The notes beneath the pieces are model-generated. The model made no database searches and was not told the origin of the DNA. It was given only the letters and a program-made list of their open reading frames with translations. The translations under genes and the position numbers were made by a program. A DNA stretch of 64,000 nucleotides from Leisingera sp. ANG-M7 (GTDB lineage: Bacteria; Pseudomonadota; Alphaproteobacteria; Rhodobacterales; Rhodobacteraceae), in contig NZ_JWLI01000001.1 of NCBI RefSeq assembly GCF_000813965.1, forward strand, positions 310,001 through 374,000, given 5' to 3'. Below, piece by piece: positions 7,936 to 30,865 of this stretch; positions within the stretch are counted from its first letter, which is position 1, and each line of letters opens with the position of its first letter.

Positions 7936-8244
7936 TCATGCTGCGCCCTTTTTCGTTTTTTTGACGCGGGGTTGACCATCGCTGGCAGCGTGACCACATC
8001 GGTCATCATGAATAGAACGCGCCGCCATCAAATCGTGCCAGCTCAAGGGGATATTCCGCTTGCTGGCTCCAGCGAGGATGGCGAGGTCATACTTGCCGTC
8101 AATCGAACCGCGCTGATGCCAGCGGTGAATGGCGACAATTTCAATTTGATCGCTCAAGGACAGGCTCTCGTTGACATCGTCAAGGAGAGCCTTCCTGCTT
8201 GGCCACTTATCAATGATGGCTTGAGTGAGGTGCTTTTTGCTCAT
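7936..8244 (-). CDS. Cro-like phage regulator
   Basis: A 102-aa DNA-binding protein. The N-terminus has the short helix-turn-helix pattern common in alphaproteobacterial phage Cro-like proteins (WPSRKALLDDV, then IVAIHRWHQRGSIDGKYDLAI), ending in a basic tail (RVKKTKKGAA). It is divergent from the XRE repressor at 8334 with palindromic operators between them, the usual lysis-lysogeny arrangement. The -10 element of its promoter ends 8 nt before the ATG, so the mRNA is probably leaderless. Confidence 0.8.
   Translation of the reverse strand: MSKKHLTQAIIDKWPSRKALLDDVNESLSLSDQIEIVAIHRWHQRGSIDGKYDLAILAGASKRNIPLSWHDLMAARSIHDDRCGHAASDGQPRVKKTKKGAA
7990..8006. promoter_or_regulatory. Operator-like palindrome inside the Cro-like gene
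   Basis: GTGACC-ACATC-GGTCAT matches the other phage operators in arm sequence and 5-nt spacing, with one arm mismatch. No -35/-10 pair flanks it. It may be an auxiliary repressor site 260 bp from the switch, or a chance match. Confidence 0.5.
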
Positions 8245-8281
8245 GCCTCACACTATAATGACCATTTCGGTCATTCGTCAA
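8245..8281 (-). promoter_or_regulatory. Promoter of the Cro-like gene with embedded operator
   Basis: On the minus strand, TTGACG (8281-8276) and TATAGT (8257-8252) are separated by 18 bp. The spacer is filled by the perfect palindrome ATGACC-GAAAT-GGTCAT (8274-8258). Seven nucleotides after the -10 comes the ATG at 8244. Repressor bound here would block polymerase directly. Confidence 0.8.
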
Positions 8282-8297
8282 CTCACCTGAATGGTTA

Positions 8298-8326
8298 TTG
8301 AACATGAACACTTTGGTCATGATAGA
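8298..8326 (+). promoter_or_regulatory. Promoter of the XRE repressor with embedded operator
   Basis: TTGAAC (8298-8303) and GATAGA (8321-8326) are separated by exactly 17 bp, which form the palindrome ATGAAC-ACTTT-GGTCAT (8304-8320), one mismatch from the operator consensus. The ATG at 8334 is 7 nt after the -10, so this mRNA also appears leaderless. The weak -10 suggests a weak or activated promoter. The layout implies autoregulation. Confidence 0.7.
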
Positions 8327-8333
8327 TTGCGTC

Positions 8334-8648
8334 ATGAGCACGAGCACCGACGCACAACAGCAAAAATCCAAATTTGCACAGGAAATGCGCCCCGAGAGAA
8401 TCGGGCAGCGCCTAAAATGGCTCCGCCTCGCACTGGGCTTTCAGCCGGCGGAAATGGCTGACTTCCTCGGCATAGAGCGCACCTACTGGTCGCGGATCGA
8501 GGGCGGCAAGCGCGCCACCTCCAAAGAACTTGCCGCTATCATCAAAGAACGGTGCAATGTGACGATGGACTACATCATCGTTGGTGAGCTGGGCGGCTTG
8601 CCGCTGGACTTGGCAAACAAGATCACGAAGATCGCCAACCAGGACTGA
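8334..8648 (+). CDS. XRE-family phage repressor
   Basis: A 104-aa helix-turn-helix protein (ERIGQRLKWLRLALGFQPAE, then MADFLGIERTYWSRIEGGKR), about 30 residues in from the start. It has no protease or LexA-like C-terminal domain, so induction would not be by RecA self-cleavage. The ATG at 8334 was chosen over upstream TTG/ATG codons at 8298-8319 because those fall inside the promoter and operator. It is divergent from the Cro-like gene and likely maintains lysogeny by binding the 17-bp palindromes. Confidence 0.82.
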   Translation: MSTSTDAQQQKSKFAQEMRPERIGQRLKWLRLALGFQPAEMADFLGIERTYWSRIEGGKRATSKELAAIIKERCNVTMDYIIVGELGGLPLDLANKITKIANQD

Positions 8649-8831
8649 TTGAAGTAGACCTCATCGACAGATTGCCCTGATTTCAGCGCCGCCCGCGCAG
8701 CGAAAAAGAGCTTCAAGTTCCAGACCCAGTACAGCACTTATCTTCCCAATCACATTCAACCTATGGACGACATGAGCGCACAGCCAACACCACCTGTCAA
8801 AAGCACTTTTCGCCTGTCGTAAATTTTCAAC

Positions 8832-9518
8832 ATGAGCAGCAAGAACGAGGCAACAAGACTGATACTGTGGCTAGAGGCGCAAGTCGAGAGCCGCCGTGCA
8901 GAGCTTGGATTAAGCCTTGGCGAGGCGTCAATTAAGGCTGGCAACAGTCGAGGATACTTGTCCCGTCTCTTCAGAGACAAGAACGATATTGGCATTGCCC
9001 GCTTCCACAGGATCTGTGACGCCCTCGGGATTTCAACGTCTGAGCGGACATCTGCTCTGGCAAGGAACGATTTCCCCAGCCTGGATGAAATCACAGAACT
9101 TGTCGCACGCGGCGCAACCGAGGATGAGATACGCGCGTTTGAGGATCACATCTTGGTATATGCGGAGCCAGACGATAGCGACAGCACTCTGCGATTGGTC
9201 CACATGGGCAGCAAAAGCTTGGCTGCGCAGGTGATATCGACACGATCACCATCGGTTCTTCAACGGGCCGTGGACGCCTTCCCAGATGCGTCACGCAAAA
9301 AATTGCTGGCCTCCTACCGAGTTGCCGCCAAGGGCGCGTGCATCATTACGATAGAACGCCTGTCAGCTCACCTGCACGGGCAGCCTGGGGTCGATGAACT
9401 GGTGTACAAACGGCTGCTATTCCCTATCGCCTCTTTCGATGGCGCCCCCGGCGTCGGGATCTACGCTATCCCGGTGTCCAACTCAGCCAAGTTCATCACG
9501 TCATCCATCGAAGAATAA
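8832..9518 (+). CDS. Second XRE-family regulator with large C-terminal domain
   Basis: A 228-aa protein. Residues 15-65 form an XRE helix-turn-helix (VESRRAELGLSLGEASIKAG, then NSRGYLSRLFRDKNDIGIAR). The C-terminal 150 residues form an alpha/beta domain of unknown type (STLRLVHMGSKSLAAQVIST, and IASFDGAPGVGIYAIPVSN). It does not show the Ser/Lys dyad of LexA-like repressors clearly. The 3' end overlaps the convergent gene at 9461 by 58 bp. It may modulate the switch, or sense a ligand through the C-terminal domain. Confidence 0.72.
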   Translation: MSSKNEATRLILWLEAQVESRRAELGLSLGEASIKAGNSRGYLSRLFRDKNDIGIARFHRICDALGISTSERTSALARNDFPSLDEITELVARGATEDEIRAFEDHILVYAEPDDSDSTLRLVHMGSKSLAAQVISTRSPSVLQRAVDAFPDASRKKLLASYRVAAKGACIITIERLSAHLHGQPGVDELVYKRLLFPIASFDGAPGVGIYAIPVSNSAKFITSSIEE

Positions 9519-10141
9519 CAGCACGCCTCATGATCCCCCCTTGTTTCAGGCACTGGAGCTGACCACACTTGAGCGCGAGGGATGCAGGACATAAGCCCGA
9601 GTTGGAACCCGAACCCCCGGCGCAAATCCCGATCCTTGAGAAATGCATAAAACTGATTGGCGCGCCACGTTATCGCGGCATGGTACAATGCTGCCCGGCC
9701 AAAGTCCTCCACAGCATTCAACTTCCTCAATTCGGGGCTGAAGAATAGATCGCCGAAATAGACCACATCACCCGACAACCGGCCGTCAACCAAGCTGGAT
9801 ACTTCCTTGATGGTTGCAACGTCATTTGCGCCAGGATACTGCCGCTGGTGGATGCGCTTCCAGTAGTCGGACACCCTCTCCCTGCCCAAGCGCTCCAACT
9901 TGACGCCAGCCGCTCCAAGCATCTTCCCTGAACCGCTGATCGTCACCCAGAAACACCCCTCAAATGTGAAGTCGTTTTTCTCCGGGGAGAGCGTGGGCGT
10001 AAGGTACGGCTTCCCAATCTCCAACAGTTTTTCCGCAACAGATTGGTAGTCGTGGGTCACACGGACAGTGCAGCCCTTTGCCTTCAGGCCGGACAGCCTG
10101 TGCGAGAGCGCGGCGGATAGAATGAATGCTTGCTCCGACAT
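9461..10141 (-). CDS. Unknown phage protein, possible acyltransferase-like fold
   Basis: A 226-aa protein of unrecognised family. Features are an N-terminal helix (MSEQAFILSAALSHRLSGLK), a beta-rich centre (FEGCFWVTISGSGKMLGAAG) and a helix with the charged stretch ERVSDYWKRIHQRQYP. The alternation recalls GNAT-type folds but no acetyl-CoA loop is certain. The ATG at 10141 has GAGG 5 nt upstream; the TTG at 10156 is less likely. It is convergent with, and overlaps, the second XRE gene, so the pair may regulate each other by transcriptional interference. Confidence 0.6.
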   Translation of the reverse strand: MSEQAFILSAALSHRLSGLKAKGCTVRVTHDYQSVAEKLLEIGKPYLTPTLSPEKNDFTFEGCFWVTISGSGKMLGAAGVKLERLGRERVSDYWKRIHQRQYPGANDVATIKEVSSLVDGRLSGDVVYFGDLFFSPELRKLNAVEDFGRAALYHAAITWRANQFYAFLKDRDLRRGFGFQLGLMSCIPRAQVWSAPVPETRGDHEACCYSSMDDVMNLAELDTGIA

Positions 10142-10235
10142 CAATACCTCGAACAATTCATGACAAATGCCGCCTCGCCTTATAGCTGATTAACGACATT
10201 CTGCGAGCACCTTGAATCCGCTGCGGCACACGTGA

Positions 10236-10252
10236 ATGTCCATTTTGGTCAT
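10236..10252. promoter_or_regulatory. Auxiliary phage operator
   Basis: ATGTCC-ATTTT-GGTCAT is a near-perfect copy of the 17-bp palindrome. Its centre is 31 bp from that of the promoter operator at 10267-10283, about three helical turns, so two repressor dimers could bind cooperatively on the same DNA face. Confidence 0.75.
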
Positions 10253-10260
10253 TTTTCCGG

Positions 10261-10289
10261 TTGACTGTGACCATTTTGGTCACTACATT
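10261..10289 (+). promoter_or_regulatory. Early rightward promoter with embedded operator
   Basis: TTGACT (10261-10266) and TACATT (10284-10289) are separated by exactly 17 bp consisting of the perfect palindrome GTGACC-ATTTT-GGTCAC. The first gene starts at 10316 with AAAGGGAG upstream. This promoter should drive the rightward operon and be shut by the repressor in the lysogen. Confidence 0.85.
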
Positions 10290-10315
10290 GGTTCTCAAGC
10301 AAAGGGAGAACCGAG

Positions 10316-10687
10316 ATGCACGGACGAGCCTTCAAGGAAATCGAACTGACGGATCGCAAGGGCGAGGACTTCGAGGGTTCCGCCGAGTTCTGCTGGACCG
10401 CCAGCAAAATCCAGGCTGACCGCGAGACCAGCGAACCGGGCGGCTGGGAGGCTTACGCTTCCATCGCCTTCGCTGTGATCGACGGTGTTCTCCATGACCG
10501 TGACGCTCTGTGCCGGCGCTTCGACAAGTCCGAGGTGACCCGCGTGGAGGCATACTTCGAGGAGGAAGCCTTCCGCGAGGAACTGGACGAGTTCGACACG
10601 ATCTATGACGACGACGGCGCTGCGTTCGACGCTGCTGCGATGATCCGAGCCGCTGATCCTGTCCTTCATTCTATGGCTGCGGAGTAA
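10316..10687 (+). CDS. Acidic phage protein, unknown function
   Basis: The first gene of the rightward operon, 123 aa, strongly acidic (runs such as EEEAFREELDEFDTIYDDDG). No known domain was recognised. Acidic early phage proteins often inhibit host DNA-binding proteins, which is only a possibility here. It lies directly behind the operator-controlled promoter, so it should be among the first proteins made on induction. Confidence 0.68.
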   Translation: MHGRAFKEIELTDRKGEDFEGSAEFCWTASKIQADRETSEPGGWEAYASIAFAVIDGVLHDRDALCRRFDKSEVTRVEAYFEEEAFREELDEFDTIYDDDGAAFDAAAMIRAADPVLHSMAAE

Positions 10688-27661: not shown

Positions 27662-28762
27662 ATGAATTTGCCAGTCATTGATCTGTTCGCGGGGGCTGGC
27701 GGATTGAGCATTGGAGCCACTCAAGCTGGCTGCGATGTGAAGGCGTCTGTTGAGCTTGATGCGACCGCTTGTGAAACACTGAAGAGAAACAATGGGTTCC
27801 ATGGTAATGTTTCTAACGAAGACGTTTCCAAGATTTCTGGACAAAATTTGCGCACCTTGGCTGGACTGTCGAGCACCGATCCCCTCGTGGTCGTAGGTGG
27901 CGCACCATGCCAGCCGTTTTCTAAAGCGGCATATTGGGTCGAAAATGGCGAGGAAGCTCGTTATCGAAGGGCTCGCGCACAAGGGCAAACGATTGATAAA
28001 CCAGGGACAAAAAGCGAAGCGCGACCTGACGAACGCAGAAACTTGGTTCTTGAATTCTGGCGCTTGATCAACGAGTCCAATGCAGACGGGTTCGTTTTCG
28101 AGAATGTCCCTTCAATAAGGCATCCCAAAAACCGCCCAGTCCTAGAAGCATTCATCGCAGAGGCGGAACGCGCTGGTTACTTTGTGTCTGAGACATTGGG
28201 TAAAGCCGTTGAGCATGGTGTAGCTCAAAAGCGTGAGCGAGTTTTTTTGCTCGGTTCGAAAAAGAAGAAACCGCAAGCGCCTGCCCCTACCCACGCCTTA
28301 CCGGGGAAAAATGTGCCCGGCCTGCTTCCAGCGTTTACGACTGGTGAAGCGCTCGACGGATTGGACGATGAGCGTTACTTCGAACCAGAAGAAATTGTAG
28401 CAGGTAAGTGGGCAGACCATCTAAAAACTGTACCACCAGGCTGGAACTACAAAGCTCACACGGCCTGGGCAGGGCATCCAAACCCGACTTTTGTCACTGA
28501 GACGCGTTTCTGGAACTTCCTCCTTAAACTAGACCCTAACAAACCATCATGGACACTAGCGGCATCTCCAGGGCCATGGACTGGACCTTTCCATTGGGAC
28601 TCCAGGAGGCTGCGGACCGTTGAGATGGCGGCCATTCAAGGATTTCCATCCGGTTACCAGTTTTCTGGAAGCAGAAGAGAACGTGTGAGGCAACTGGGAA
28701 ACGCCGTTCCGCCTCCTTTGGCAAAATCCATGGTTTCGTCGGTAATGGAGGCCGTCGCATGA
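27662..28762 (+). CDS. DNA (cytosine-5) methyltransferase 1
   Basis: A complete 366-aa C5 methyltransferase. Motif I is IDLFAGAGGLSIG (residues 6-18). Motif IV is GGAPCQPFS with catalytic C83. Motif VI is FVFENV, motif VIII is AQKRERVFLLG and motif X is RQLGNAVPPPLAKSM at the C-terminus. A variable target-recognition region lies about residues 225-300. The stop overlaps the start of a second methyltransferase (ATGA), and an HNH protein follows, so it is the modification arm of a restriction system. The recognition sequence cannot be read from the protein. Confidence 0.95.
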   Translation: MNLPVIDLFAGAGGLSIGATQAGCDVKASVELDATACETLKRNNGFHGNVSNEDVSKISGQNLRTLAGLSSTDPLVVVGGAPCQPFSKAAYWVENGEEARYRRARAQGQTIDKPGTKSEARPDERRNLVLEFWRLINESNADGFVFENVPSIRHPKNRPVLEAFIAEAERAGYFVSETLGKAVEHGVAQKRERVFLLGSKKKKPQAPAPTHALPGKNVPGLLPAFTTGEALDGLDDERYFEPEEIVAGKWADHLKTVPPGWNYKAHTAWAGHPNPTFVTETRFWNFLLKLDPNKPSWTLAASPGPWTGPFHWDSRRLRTVEMAAIQGFPSGYQFSGSRRERVRQLGNAVPPPLAKSMVSSVMEAVA

Positions 28763-29820
28763 AAGAGACCCTTACATCGGTGAGTCTGTTTTCCGGCTGC
28801 GGGGGCTTGGATGCTGGCTTAGAGGACGCTGGCTTTCGCACGTTGTTCGCCACCGACAGTGAAAAAACCTGCCAGATCACGTATGAGCACAACTTTCCTT
28901 CCGCAAAGTTTGCCTTGGCCCGCATTGGCGAACTAACTGAGGCGAAACTCAAAGACGAGTTAGGCGACCGGGCAGAAAGCATTGACCTACTGGCGGGAGG
29001 CCCACCTTGCCCTCCGTTCTCCAAAAGCAGGTTCTATCGCAAAGATATGCCCAGAGCCTTGGACGATCCAAACGGCTTAGAAACTGTTGAAGGCTATCTC
29101 AACGTTTTGAGTTGGTTGCGCCCTCGTGCGTTCATTTTGGAGAATGTAAAGGGGCTGTCCTATAAAGTGCATGCTGAAGCATTGCACACAATCACTTCAC
29201 GAGCCGAAGCACTTGGTTACAATGTCAGCCAAAAAACTCTCAATGCGGCCGATTATGGCGTGCCACAGATGCGCGAACGTTTTTTTGTAGTTGGCCTACT
29301 TGACGGAGAGTTCAAATTTCCGGCTCCCACCCATGATAAAGAGGGTAATCTGGGGTTGCCTAAATGGGTGACTGCTGGGCATGCTATCTCAGATTTAGAT
29401 ACTGAAGAAAATGCAGACGATACTGGGCATTTTGCTGGTGGAAAATTTCATCACCTCTTGGCTCAGATACCCCCCGGGGAAAACTACCTGCACCTGACAA
29501 AGGAACGAGGGCACCCCAATCCGGTCTTTAAGTGGCGCAGTCGCTACTGGTCTTATCTTTTGAAGTTGAGCCCTGAGAAACCCTCATGGACAATTCAGGC
29601 AAGACGCTCAAATAACATGGGCCCTTTGCACTGGCGAAACCGAATTTTGCGTATCGAAGAAGTGAAAAGGTTGCAGAGTTTTTCGGATGACTTTTATTTG
29701 TCAGGCACCGTTGAGCAACAATGGCGACAAATTGGGAACGCTGTCCCTCCTCGACTTGCGGCAGCGCTTGGTCAACAACTTGTACTACATTTGCAAAAGA
29801 AAGTGTCTAAGGCCGCTTAG
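28759..29820 (+). CDS. DNA (cytosine-5) methyltransferase 2
   Basis: A second complete C5 methyltransferase, 353 aa. Motif I is LFSGCGGLDAG (residues 10-20). Motif IV reads GGPPCPPFS with catalytic C84, where Gln after Cys is replaced by Pro. ILENV, PQMRERFFVVG and QIGNAVPPRLAAAL complete the set. It is clearly diverged from methyltransferase 1, so the pair is not a recent duplication. Two C5 enzymes in one operon usually mean an asymmetric target, each enzyme protecting one strand. It is coupled to the upstream gene by a 4-nt overlap. Confidence 0.94.
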   Translation: MKETLTSVSLFSGCGGLDAGLEDAGFRTLFATDSEKTCQITYEHNFPSAKFALARIGELTEAKLKDELGDRAESIDLLAGGPPCPPFSKSRFYRKDMPRALDDPNGLETVEGYLNVLSWLRPRAFILENVKGLSYKVHAEALHTITSRAEALGYNVSQKTLNAADYGVPQMRERFFVVGLLDGEFKFPAPTHDKEGNLGLPKWVTAGHAISDLDTEENADDTGHFAGGKFHHLLAQIPPGENYLHLTKERGHPNPVFKWRSRYWSYLLKLSPEKPSWTIQARRSNNMGPLHWRNRILRIEEVKRLQSFSDDFYLSGTVEQQWRQIGNAVPPRLAAALGQQLVLHLQKKVSKAA

Positions 29821-29845
29821 AGCTTTCATTTCTTTGGATAAATAG

Positions 29846-30865
29846 ATGGCTCCGCTTAGAAAACCAGCATTGTTTCGCATTTTCGAGAACTCGCTTCGAA
29901 AGTGCGGCCTCAACTTCCTTAGACTTTCGGCTGAGGGGGCTCACCCAGCCTCCTACCAAGTAATTGGACCAGCAAACTCATTTACGGTCCAGGTCTATAT
30001 CTGGAATTTGACCTTCGGTGGGCGTCAGTCAATTCCGGGTGAATGGAGAATTCAAGTTACAGGTCTACCTGAGTTCGGCGGGCACCAGCGTTTTCAGCCT
30101 AAAGAAGGTGAAAAAACTGTTGTTCTCGGATGGTGCCAAGAGCTTCAGGTGTTTGCTGGGTATGACGTTACCAAGCATCTCGGTCCCTTAGGGGGGTCAC
30201 CCTCTATTCAAATTCGTCAACCTGCACTCGAAGCATGTAGAGTTAACGGTCTTGCTCACCACTTTAGGGGAGGGGAAGAGGTTGCTTTCGCGATAAAACC
30301 GGAGTGCATGGGAATTTATCTAGACTTTGTAGAAGACCTCCACGCCTGCGGATCATCAAATGAAGCACTAGAATTGCTCGCTGGCATCTTCGAGGACCCA
30401 CCGCTCATTGATGATAGTGAGGTTAATGAGAAAGTACCCGAGCCGCGCCGCTTTGCTGTCGTCTCCACTAAGAAGGCATTACGTGACGCGAACTTCAGCA
30501 ATCGAGTCTTGACCGCTTACTCAAATACGTGTGCGATGTGCGGCACTCAACTACGGCTGCTCGATGCGGCTCACATTTTACCTGCTGCACACCCTGAGAG
30601 CACTGACGATACCAGCAATGGGATTTCTCTATGCGCTCTGCACCATCGCGCATATGATCGAGGCCTTGTCACTTTTGGTACGAATTACCGAATTCACATC
30701 AATGCTTCGGCAGTAGAAGAACTCACCGACAGAAACTTGCACGGCGGCCTGGAGAAGTTCAGTGAGAACTTGTTCCATATGATTGAAGTTCCCCCTGCAA
30801 AAGCTGACCGGCCCGCTGAAAAGTATGTCGAGCAAGTCAACAGTTTGCGGGGCTGGGTTATCTGA
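29846..30865 (+). CDS. HNH endonuclease, probable restriction enzyme partner
   Basis: A 339-aa protein. The C-terminal part (about residues 227-275) is an HNH_2-like nuclease: TCAMCGTQLRLLDAAHILPA, then SNGISLCALHHRAYDRGLVTF, with the two Cys pairs for zinc and the catalytic His. The first 190 residues form a beta-rich region that I do not recognise (WRIQVTGLPEFGG; YDVTKHLGPLGGSPSIQI) and that may be the DNA-reading domain. It starts 25 bp after methyltransferase 2. The gene order makes it the restriction arm; alternatively it is a modification-dependent nuclease. Confidence 0.88.
   Translation: MAPLRKPALFRIFENSLRKCGLNFLRLSAEGAHPASYQVIGPANSFTVQVYIWNLTFGGRQSIPGEWRIQVTGLPEFGGHQRFQPKEGEKTVVLGWCQELQVFAGYDVTKHLGPLGGSPSIQIRQPALEACRVNGLAHHFRGGEEVAFAIKPECMGIYLDFVEDLHACGSSNEALELLAGIFEDPPLIDDSEVNEKVPEPRRFAVVSTKKALRDANFSNRVLTAYSNTCAMCGTQLRLLDAAHILPAAHPESTDDTSNGISLCALHHRAYDRGLVTFGTNYRIHINASAVEELTDRNLHGGLEKFSENLFHMIEVPPAKADRPAEKYVEQVNSLRGWVI

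Follow-up and report, generated by a model that had tools for sequence, protein, structure and literature searches.

A predicted lambda-type immunity region with two putatively leaderless regulator genes in a Leisingera prophage

How is a prophage switch organized when each of its two divergent promoters seems to hold an operator in its spacer and to start transcription at the start codon itself? This question was raised by a locus of Leisingera sp. ANG-M7, a marine member of the Rhodobacterales, located in a stretch of 64,000 nt (assembly GCF_000813965.1, contig NZ_JWLI01000001.1, forward-strand positions 310,001-374,000), which is called the window below and to which all coordinates refer unless stated otherwise. 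A preliminary description of this DNA had reported a palindrome within the -35/-10 spacer of both promoters as well as an ATG 7 nt past the -10 on both the cro and the XRE sides, and both points are read directly from the window letters. Our analyses of operator words, spacings, start codon positions, Shine-Dalgarno scarcity and conservation, all taken from the sequence, suggested that the locus is the immunity region of a lambda-type OR/OL prophage in which both regulators are leaderless, and we put the probability of this reading at roughly three in four.

The coordinates of the predicted elements are collected in Table 1. On the minus strand, the cro promoter comprises TTGACG (8281-8276), an 18-nt spacer containing ATGACCGAAATGGTCAT, TATAGT (8257-8252) and GTGAGGC, followed by the ATG at 8244, which is the first possible start because an in-frame TGA lies two codons upstream. 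The XRE promoter on the plus strand comprises TTGAAC (8298-8303), the 17-nt spacer ATGAACACTTTGGTCAT (8304-8320), GATAGA (8321-8326) and TTGCGTC, followed by the ATG at 8334; two further in-frame ATGs (8304 and 8319) lie upstream of this chosen start. The XRE boxes match the consensus poorly (4/6 and 3/6, respectively), and a consensus promoter scan found the cro promoter and not the XRE promoter, so the latter appears weak by sequence alone. Sites matching ATGACCN5GGTCAT with at most 2 mismatches were detected 12 times in the window, where 2.33 would be expected, and five of these sites fall within 7990-10283. Compared with the nearest relative, Leisingera sp. SS27, no change was seen in the 89-bp intergenic region, and 70 were counted over the remaining 1,012 bases compared (P ~0.002). 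In addition, an operator-like word in the 3' end of cro was observed in two Leisingera copies (7990-8006 in the window; 19715-19731 in L150), and the locus L068 and its near-duplicate L069 carried an extra operator-like word, ATGACCAAGATGGTTAT, overlapping the cro -10 and start codon.

Table 1. Predicted features of the immunity region in the window, with the evidence for each; dG, Shine-Dalgarno pairing value.
Feature	Position	Strand	Basis
Cro-like regulator gene, 102 aa, first of leftward (probably lytic) operon, predicted leaderless	7936-8244	-	ORF, profile, model
Operator-like site GTGACCACATCGGTCAT, near-perfect operator word, 3' end of cro	7990-8006		window and G013 (Leisingera sp. SS27)
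cro -10, TATAGT	8252-8257	-	window letters and consensus scan
Putative operator O1, ATGACCATTTCGGTCAT, in cro promoter spacer	8258-8274		operator-word scan, relatives' comparison
cro -35, TTGACG	8276-8281	-	consensus scan; TTGAC spacing to ATG in relatives
Putative operator O2, CTCACCTGAATGGTTAT; shares one base with XRE -35	8282-8298		core at fixed shift from O1
XRE -35, TTGAAC	8298-8303	+	TTG position in 21/21 same-word loci, O3-less ones included
Putative operator O3, ATGAACACTTTGGTCAT, equal to XRE promoter spacer exactly	8304-8320		one mismatch from full consensus
XRE -10, GATAGA, weak	8321-8326	+	window letters, relatives' comparison
XRE repressor gene, 104 aa, HTH only, predicted leaderless	8334-8648 (stop codon included)	+	Pfam, PHROG, model
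OL-like cluster, upstream site ATGTCCATTTTGGTCAT	10236-10252		operator-word scan, own-word pair search
PL-like promoter -35, TTGACT	10261-10266	+	window letters, relatives
OL-like site GTGACCATTTTGGTCAC, fills PL-like spacer, 31 bp from partner	10267-10283		operator-word scan, own-word pair search
PL-like promoter -10, TACATT	10284-10289	+	window letters, relatives
Shine-Dalgarno AAAGGGAGA, leader of predicted PL-like transcript	10301-10309	+	dG -8.4
First PL-like operon gene, 123 aa, unassigned product	10316-10687	+	ORF

Related loci were collected by several searches. Annotated phage records gave no match to the XRE or the Cro-like protein. Among 148 genomes of the window's relatives (its own included), the Cro-like protein was matched in 4 and the XRE protein in 23; one of the four Cro matches (L005) held two internal stops, looked like a chance match and was dropped. 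Profile searches returned 15/394 (E 1e-8) and 31/394 (E 1e-12) for genomes of the host family and 39/289 (E 1e-8) for those of the host class; named genomes contributed 11 loci and viral contigs another 18. A pair was accepted when a divergent Cro-like ORF, recognized by profile, lay beside the XRE gene, and the loci are thus defined by the gene pair alone. The resulting 67 rows were reduced to 33 distinct pairs (the window and 32 others) once near-identical regions had been collapsed. By source, pairs were present in the window (1), in 7/24 and 2/3 loci of the earlier searches, in 13/17 new loci of the family profile at E 1e-8 and 16/30 at E 1e-12, in 10/11 loci of named genomes and in 18/18 viral contigs, and none was found among the 29 new loci of the class-wide search. 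The named hosts include Leisingera, Pseudoroseicyclus, Cognatishimia, Paracoccus, Alloyangia, Aquimixticola, Meinhardsimonia, Oceanicola and Palleronia. Twenty-one loci use the window's operator word (ACC/GGT or ACT/AGT), a group that was picked after the data had been seen. Two loci with no -35 meeting the rule (L048 and L063) were excluded from the 31-locus analyses, namely the O1 shift profile and the search for the PL-like pair, and two with doubtful -35 boxes (L036 and L087) were used in that shift profile. Loci L032-L037, L041, L043, L011, L088 and L093 have other operator words (e.g., ATCGAC..., ATGGAA... or ATGGAC...) in the same geometry and are candidate separate immunity groups.

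Comparison of these loci supported operators in both promoter spacers, as the preliminary description had it, and at the same time showed that picture to be incomplete, as it had missed O2 (8282-8298) and a second cluster (10236-10283); a switch with two operators only is ruled out by these additions. First, the O2 core CC-N5-GG, or CT-N5-AG where O1 has GACT, was found at +24/25 from O1 in 19 of the 21 same-word loci (the misses being L060 and L068), against 1 in 903 tests once the O2 and O3 shifts are set aside. In both loci whose O1 reads GACT..AGTC (L050 and L070), the matching CT..AG core is present at O2. Measured to the XRE ATG, the centre of O2 is 43 bp upstream in most loci and 44 bp in the window, which we take to be close to the position of OR2 at lambda PRM. 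Second, 13 of the 21 loci passed the strict core test for O3. The window's own O3, with its ATGAAC half, failed this test yet is one mismatch from the full consensus; by reading, a relaxed version is kept in three of the eight failures (the window, L057 and L067) and not in the other five. By sequence comparison, O1 and O2 are the constant sites. Third, a word-independent test, in which each of 31 loci was compared with its own O1, gave peaks at +24/25 (z 4.8 and 8.0) and at +40 and +42 (z 4.0 and 5.2), besides a weaker signal at +17 (z 2.9). Taken together, these loci repeat O1 at +24 to +26 and +40 to +43; in the 12 other-word loci alone, O1 recurred at +25/26 and +40/41 (z 3.4 to 5.1). The distance from O1 to the XRE ATG is 74-79 bp in 21/21 loci. 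Three related operators therefore appear to lie between the two genes, as in the OR/OL switch of lambda type.

A second putative operator cluster precedes the other early operon, which is likewise characteristic of such a switch. The same OL-like pair, 31 bp apart, occurs in three further genomes (G013, G062 and G182). When each locus was searched with its own O1 word, a pair with a TTGAC-like box was found in 26 of 31 loci, spaced by 31 bp in 21, 30 bp in 3, and 29 and 32 bp once each; the pair was missing in L042, L043, L070, L087 and L088. Control searches gave 7/476 with the words of other loci and 1/580 with permuted palindromes. In the window and in L057 the pair is found 1.9 kb beyond the start of the XRE domain, and the remaining 25 loci for which a PL-like candidate was listed have it 0.4-0.9 kb beyond that point. 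Only ~0.5 kb or less separates XRE from the downstream PL-like promoter in G062 and G182, which leaves no room for a second HTH/XRE gene such as the one (228 aa, 8832-9518) found downstream of the repressor in the window. The latter has TAAATT 6 nt ahead of its ATG; as a leaderless candidate it was inspected by eye only and dropped.

The two proteins and their surroundings bear on which of them acts as the repressor. The XRE protein matched HTH_31 and HTH_3 above the Pfam cut-off and a PHROG family of transcriptional repressors, and its predicted model (pLDDT 91) contains helices only. The C-terminal peptidase/dimer domain of the LexA-like lambda CI family, whose members undergo RecA-induced cleavage, is absent from it, as judged from its 104 aa, its HTH matches only and its all-helical model, so induction must use another route. 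The Cro-like protein also has a helical predicted model (pLDDT 85), for which Foldseek gave Xfaso1 Cro as the best but weak match and N15 Cro among the next sensible ones (E >1); it belongs to no family in Pfam, PHROG or NCBIfam. Four tested Cro-like relatives scored 21-33 bits with the carph-isopro model (NF046037), below its cut-off of 38, the window protein had no match, and the open-licence literature search found no paper on this domain. Leftward of cro are genes for a ParB-like protein, a RusA-like resolvase, a NusG-like antiterminator and a small terminase. Rightward, on the plus strand, ERF (12838), YqaJ exonuclease (13566), NinB (14353) and an integrase (18163) adjoining tRNA-Val were found, and the genes from 10316 through the integrase probably form one transcript. 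It would be conceivable that the roles are reversed, with the 102-aa protein as repressor in lysogeny and XRE as the lytic regulator, as both are small HTH proteins and neither has a peptidase domain; we regard this as improbable, since the 102-aa gene heads the side toward the antiterminator and terminase, its product weakly resembles Cro folds while XRE matches PHROG repressors, and the XRE promoter, which is weak and has an operator immediately ahead of it, fits the expectation for a repressor that activates itself. An autoregulated antitoxin-like module in place of phage immunity is brought to mind by the profile matches of XRE to solved structures, where the antitoxin PezA came first and another antitoxin, HipB, appeared along with the repressors of 434 and P22. 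The flanking prophage genes to the left and right, an operator word shared with the recombination side, and the fact that no toxin gene was noticed beside the pair on inspection make that explanation highly improbable.

The positions of the start codons bear on leaderlessness. On the cro side, TTGAC stands 35-38 nt upstream of an in-frame ATG in 25 of 33 loci (L087 being counted only via the outer of two TTGAC boxes) compared with 3 of 300 host ORFs (Fisher 1e-27), and no other 4-nt interval from 11 to 90 contains more than 4 loci. The eight exceptions comprise altered -35 boxes (L011, L033, L048, L063 and L068), a distance of 39 nt (L041) and two apparent leaders (L036 and L057): in L036, the operator ahead of cro is duplicated and XRE is preceded by a strong Shine-Dalgarno sequence (dG -11.6), and in L057 the cro leader is longer. 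On the XRE side, TTG is located 34-38 nt ahead of an XRE ATG in all 21 same-word loci and at exactly 35 nt in 17 of them, the accepted distances (34, 35, 36 and 38) having been fixed after the data were seen; TTG at 34-36 nt was found in 12/172 of the host comparison. This TTG is retained in loci where O3 is lost (L029, L048, L050, L060 and L070). Among the 12 other-word loci, an ATG at the XRE domain start is preceded by TTG at 34-36 nt in L034 and L088 alone; in L093 the ATG so preceded is sited 63 nt upstream of the domain start, and in L032 and L037 no XRE ATG was present within the searched range. Because so few of these loci fit, leaderlessness of XRE seems to be a trait of the window's operator-word group and not of the wider family. 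Comparison supports the claim that, for cro and XRE alike, the ATG coincides with the predicted start of transcription, as this position is kept in diverged relatives.

Shine-Dalgarno sequences (dG -4.5 or below) were scarce at the predicted leaderless starts, being present at 4/33 for cro and 4/21 for XRE against 96/215 host starts, and the value is -1.1 at both the cro and the XRE start of the window. In contrast, among 24 loci with PL-like gene starts within 110 nt, a Shine-Dalgarno sequence was found at one candidate in 22 and at the first candidate in 13. Since this first contrast set the best of up to 4 PL candidates against one start per regulator, the regulators were recounted evenly with the best nearby ATG (cro 5/33, XRE 5/21), by which the contrast becomes somewhat smaller. 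An ATG at the expected promoter start combined with the lack of a Shine-Dalgarno sequence, the two marks of a leaderless gene, is what both regulator genes appear to show. The PL-like promoter can serve as an internal control, because it has the same repressor word and the same operator-in-spacer design yet an ordinary leader, and leaderlessness as a general result of that design is ruled out by the leaders of the PL-like genes.

The same switch might instead produce very short leaders of 1-5 nt or start at several positions, in which case "leaderless" would be approximate and functionless. The cro -35 to ATG distance does range from 35 to 39 nt, for which reason leaders of 1-3 nt are possible, and some loci have a Shine-Dalgarno-like sequence ahead of their starts; on the other hand, the XRE distance is held at exactly 35 in most same-word loci though the sequence between -10 and ATG varies, and Shine-Dalgarno matches are few compared with PL in the same loci, so that we consider this alternative unlikely. 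Furthermore, leaderlessness could be a side effect of fitting three operators and two promoters into ~90 bp and not have been selected for translation, which is compatible with the main reading. The narrow range of the O1 to XRE ATG distance, with the intergenic space used fully, speaks for packing; PL-like promoters, which share the operator-in-spacer design yet retain leaders, speak against it, as does the consideration that a leader would merely lengthen the region, which L057 appears to tolerate. We give the packing explanation somewhat less than an even chance.

As for the host, a sample of 320 kb with 300 non-overlapping ORFs had the TTGAC signature at the above 3/300 with no peak in distance, and the -10 profile over 215 starts showed no peak either. 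There was no sign of wide host use of leaderless starts in this sample, from which the absence of host leaderless genes does not follow because start calling in it was crude. One of the three host ORFs with the signature (L133-L148 joined, minus-strand 199803) has TTGACA 36 nt before its ATG with a palindromic stretch between. Leaderless mRNAs are on record in other Alphaproteobacteria, including 375 in Caulobacter (PMC4117421) and 171 in S. meliloti.

These observations can be assembled into a lambda-like mechanism with both regulators leaderless, for which protein binding, transcription starts, autoactivation, Cro at O3 and the roles of both proteins are what we infer. The 104-aa XRE protein would be the prophage repressor and the 102-aa HTH protein its Cro. 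Repressor dimers on the 17-bp O1 and O2 would turn off the strong cro/lytic promoter, and repressor on the OL-like pair would turn off the second early promoter, which serves the recombination and integration genes. O2, situated ~43 bp upstream of the XRE start beside a weak promoter, would probably allow the repressor to activate its own gene, and it is also placed so that it could block cro from upstream, while O3 in the XRE spacer would turn the XRE gene off at high levels of repressor or Cro. Both regulator mRNAs would begin at, or within about 3 nt of, the AUG and be translated without a Shine-Dalgarno sequence, and the PL-like transcript would carry an ordinary leader.

In lambda itself, the divergent promoters for repressor and Cro enclose three 17-bp operators; a further operator cluster is present on the recombination side, and one operator is placed at about -42 of the repressor promoter. 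The predicted region resembles it in the divergent promoters, the three 17-bp operators, the second cluster, the operator at about -42 and the leaderless repressor gene. It differs in that the cro gene is also predicted to be leaderless, in that the repressor is HTH only (104 aa) with no peptidase domain, and in operator spacing, which is 24-25 and then 18 bp (22 bp in the window), OL consisting of two sites ~31 bp apart. Leaderlessness of lambda cI, long known, is stated in PMC8630535 and PMC4488713. The preliminary description had regarded leaderlessness on both sides of a switch as unusual, which holds, and its claim to novelty is weakened because there is a precedent in the telomere phage PY54, whose cI and cro mRNAs are both leaderless by RACE according to PMC4488713. 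By the same source, PY54 is an enterobacterial phage whose Cro binds the single site OR3 upstream of cI, with the cro promoter no more than 40 bp away. In a cryptic prophage of E. coli O157:H7, the leaderless cI-like regulator paaR2 faces the small HTH protein YdaS across 97 bp, and in the passages available leaderlessness is stated for the repressor side only (PMC8630535). Within the same order, Rhodobacterales, the regulator gene of acuR-acuI-dddL in Rhodobacter sphaeroides was found by RACE to be leaderless, with lower translation, though it belongs to a metabolic operon with a TetR-type regulator (PMC3017554). Caulobacter leaderless mRNAs showed similar translation efficiency (PMC4117421), and the literature is thus mixed on the suggestion of the preliminary description that leaderless translation may hold the repressor at a low level.

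A further parallel is the hth / xre-luxR-luxI module of Phaeobacter inhibens T5, where divergent hth (lysis) and xre (lysogeny) promoters occur in prophages of a Roseobacter-group host. Reporters in two prophages of this strain showed that the xre promoter was on and the hth promoter repressed in lysogens, and that hth was on without the prophage (PMC13345283), which by analogy supports the direction of the switch roles proposed here. Autoactivation is not assured, because xre was needed for its own promoter in one of these prophages and suppressed it in the other. The Phaeobacter modules differ in having quorum-sensing genes inside the xre operon, and in the main text the terms "operator", "leaderless" and "transcription start" are absent (PMC13345283). 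Apart from these related modules, the switch family is described in none of the papers listed by the open-licence literature searches.

What appears to be new is a layout held across diverged phages despite changing operator words, to which O2, the OL-like cluster and the contrast with a leadered operon are added. Such findings would replace the impression of a single site by a whole family of immunity regions of lambda-like build in phages of the Rhodobacterales, and immunity groups might be readable from sequence, because the geometry is constant while the operator words change. In addition, this single prophage appears to place one leadered and two leaderless genes under the same repressor, a natural setting in which to ask why regulators of phages lack leaders. 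In lambda, cI is leaderless and cro is leadered. It is tempting to speculate that selection kept both arms of the lysis-lysogeny decision leaderless and the neighbouring early operon leadered, thereby coupling the decision to leaderless initiation by host 70S ribosomes, an idea that we hold to be distinctly doubtful. If it were true, the levels of initiation factors or initiator tRNA under stress, for example, would feed the translation state into induction, an input that lambda lacks.

Two minor observations concern other parts of the prophage neighbourhood. The NusG-like protein at 2613-3290 matches a PHROG transcription antiterminator and lies near the terminase, and it is possibly a late-gene antiterminator. 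Furthermore, two adjoining DNA-methyltransferase-like ORFs followed by an HNH-endonuclease-like ORF were noticed at 27662-30865 from reading of the translations only.
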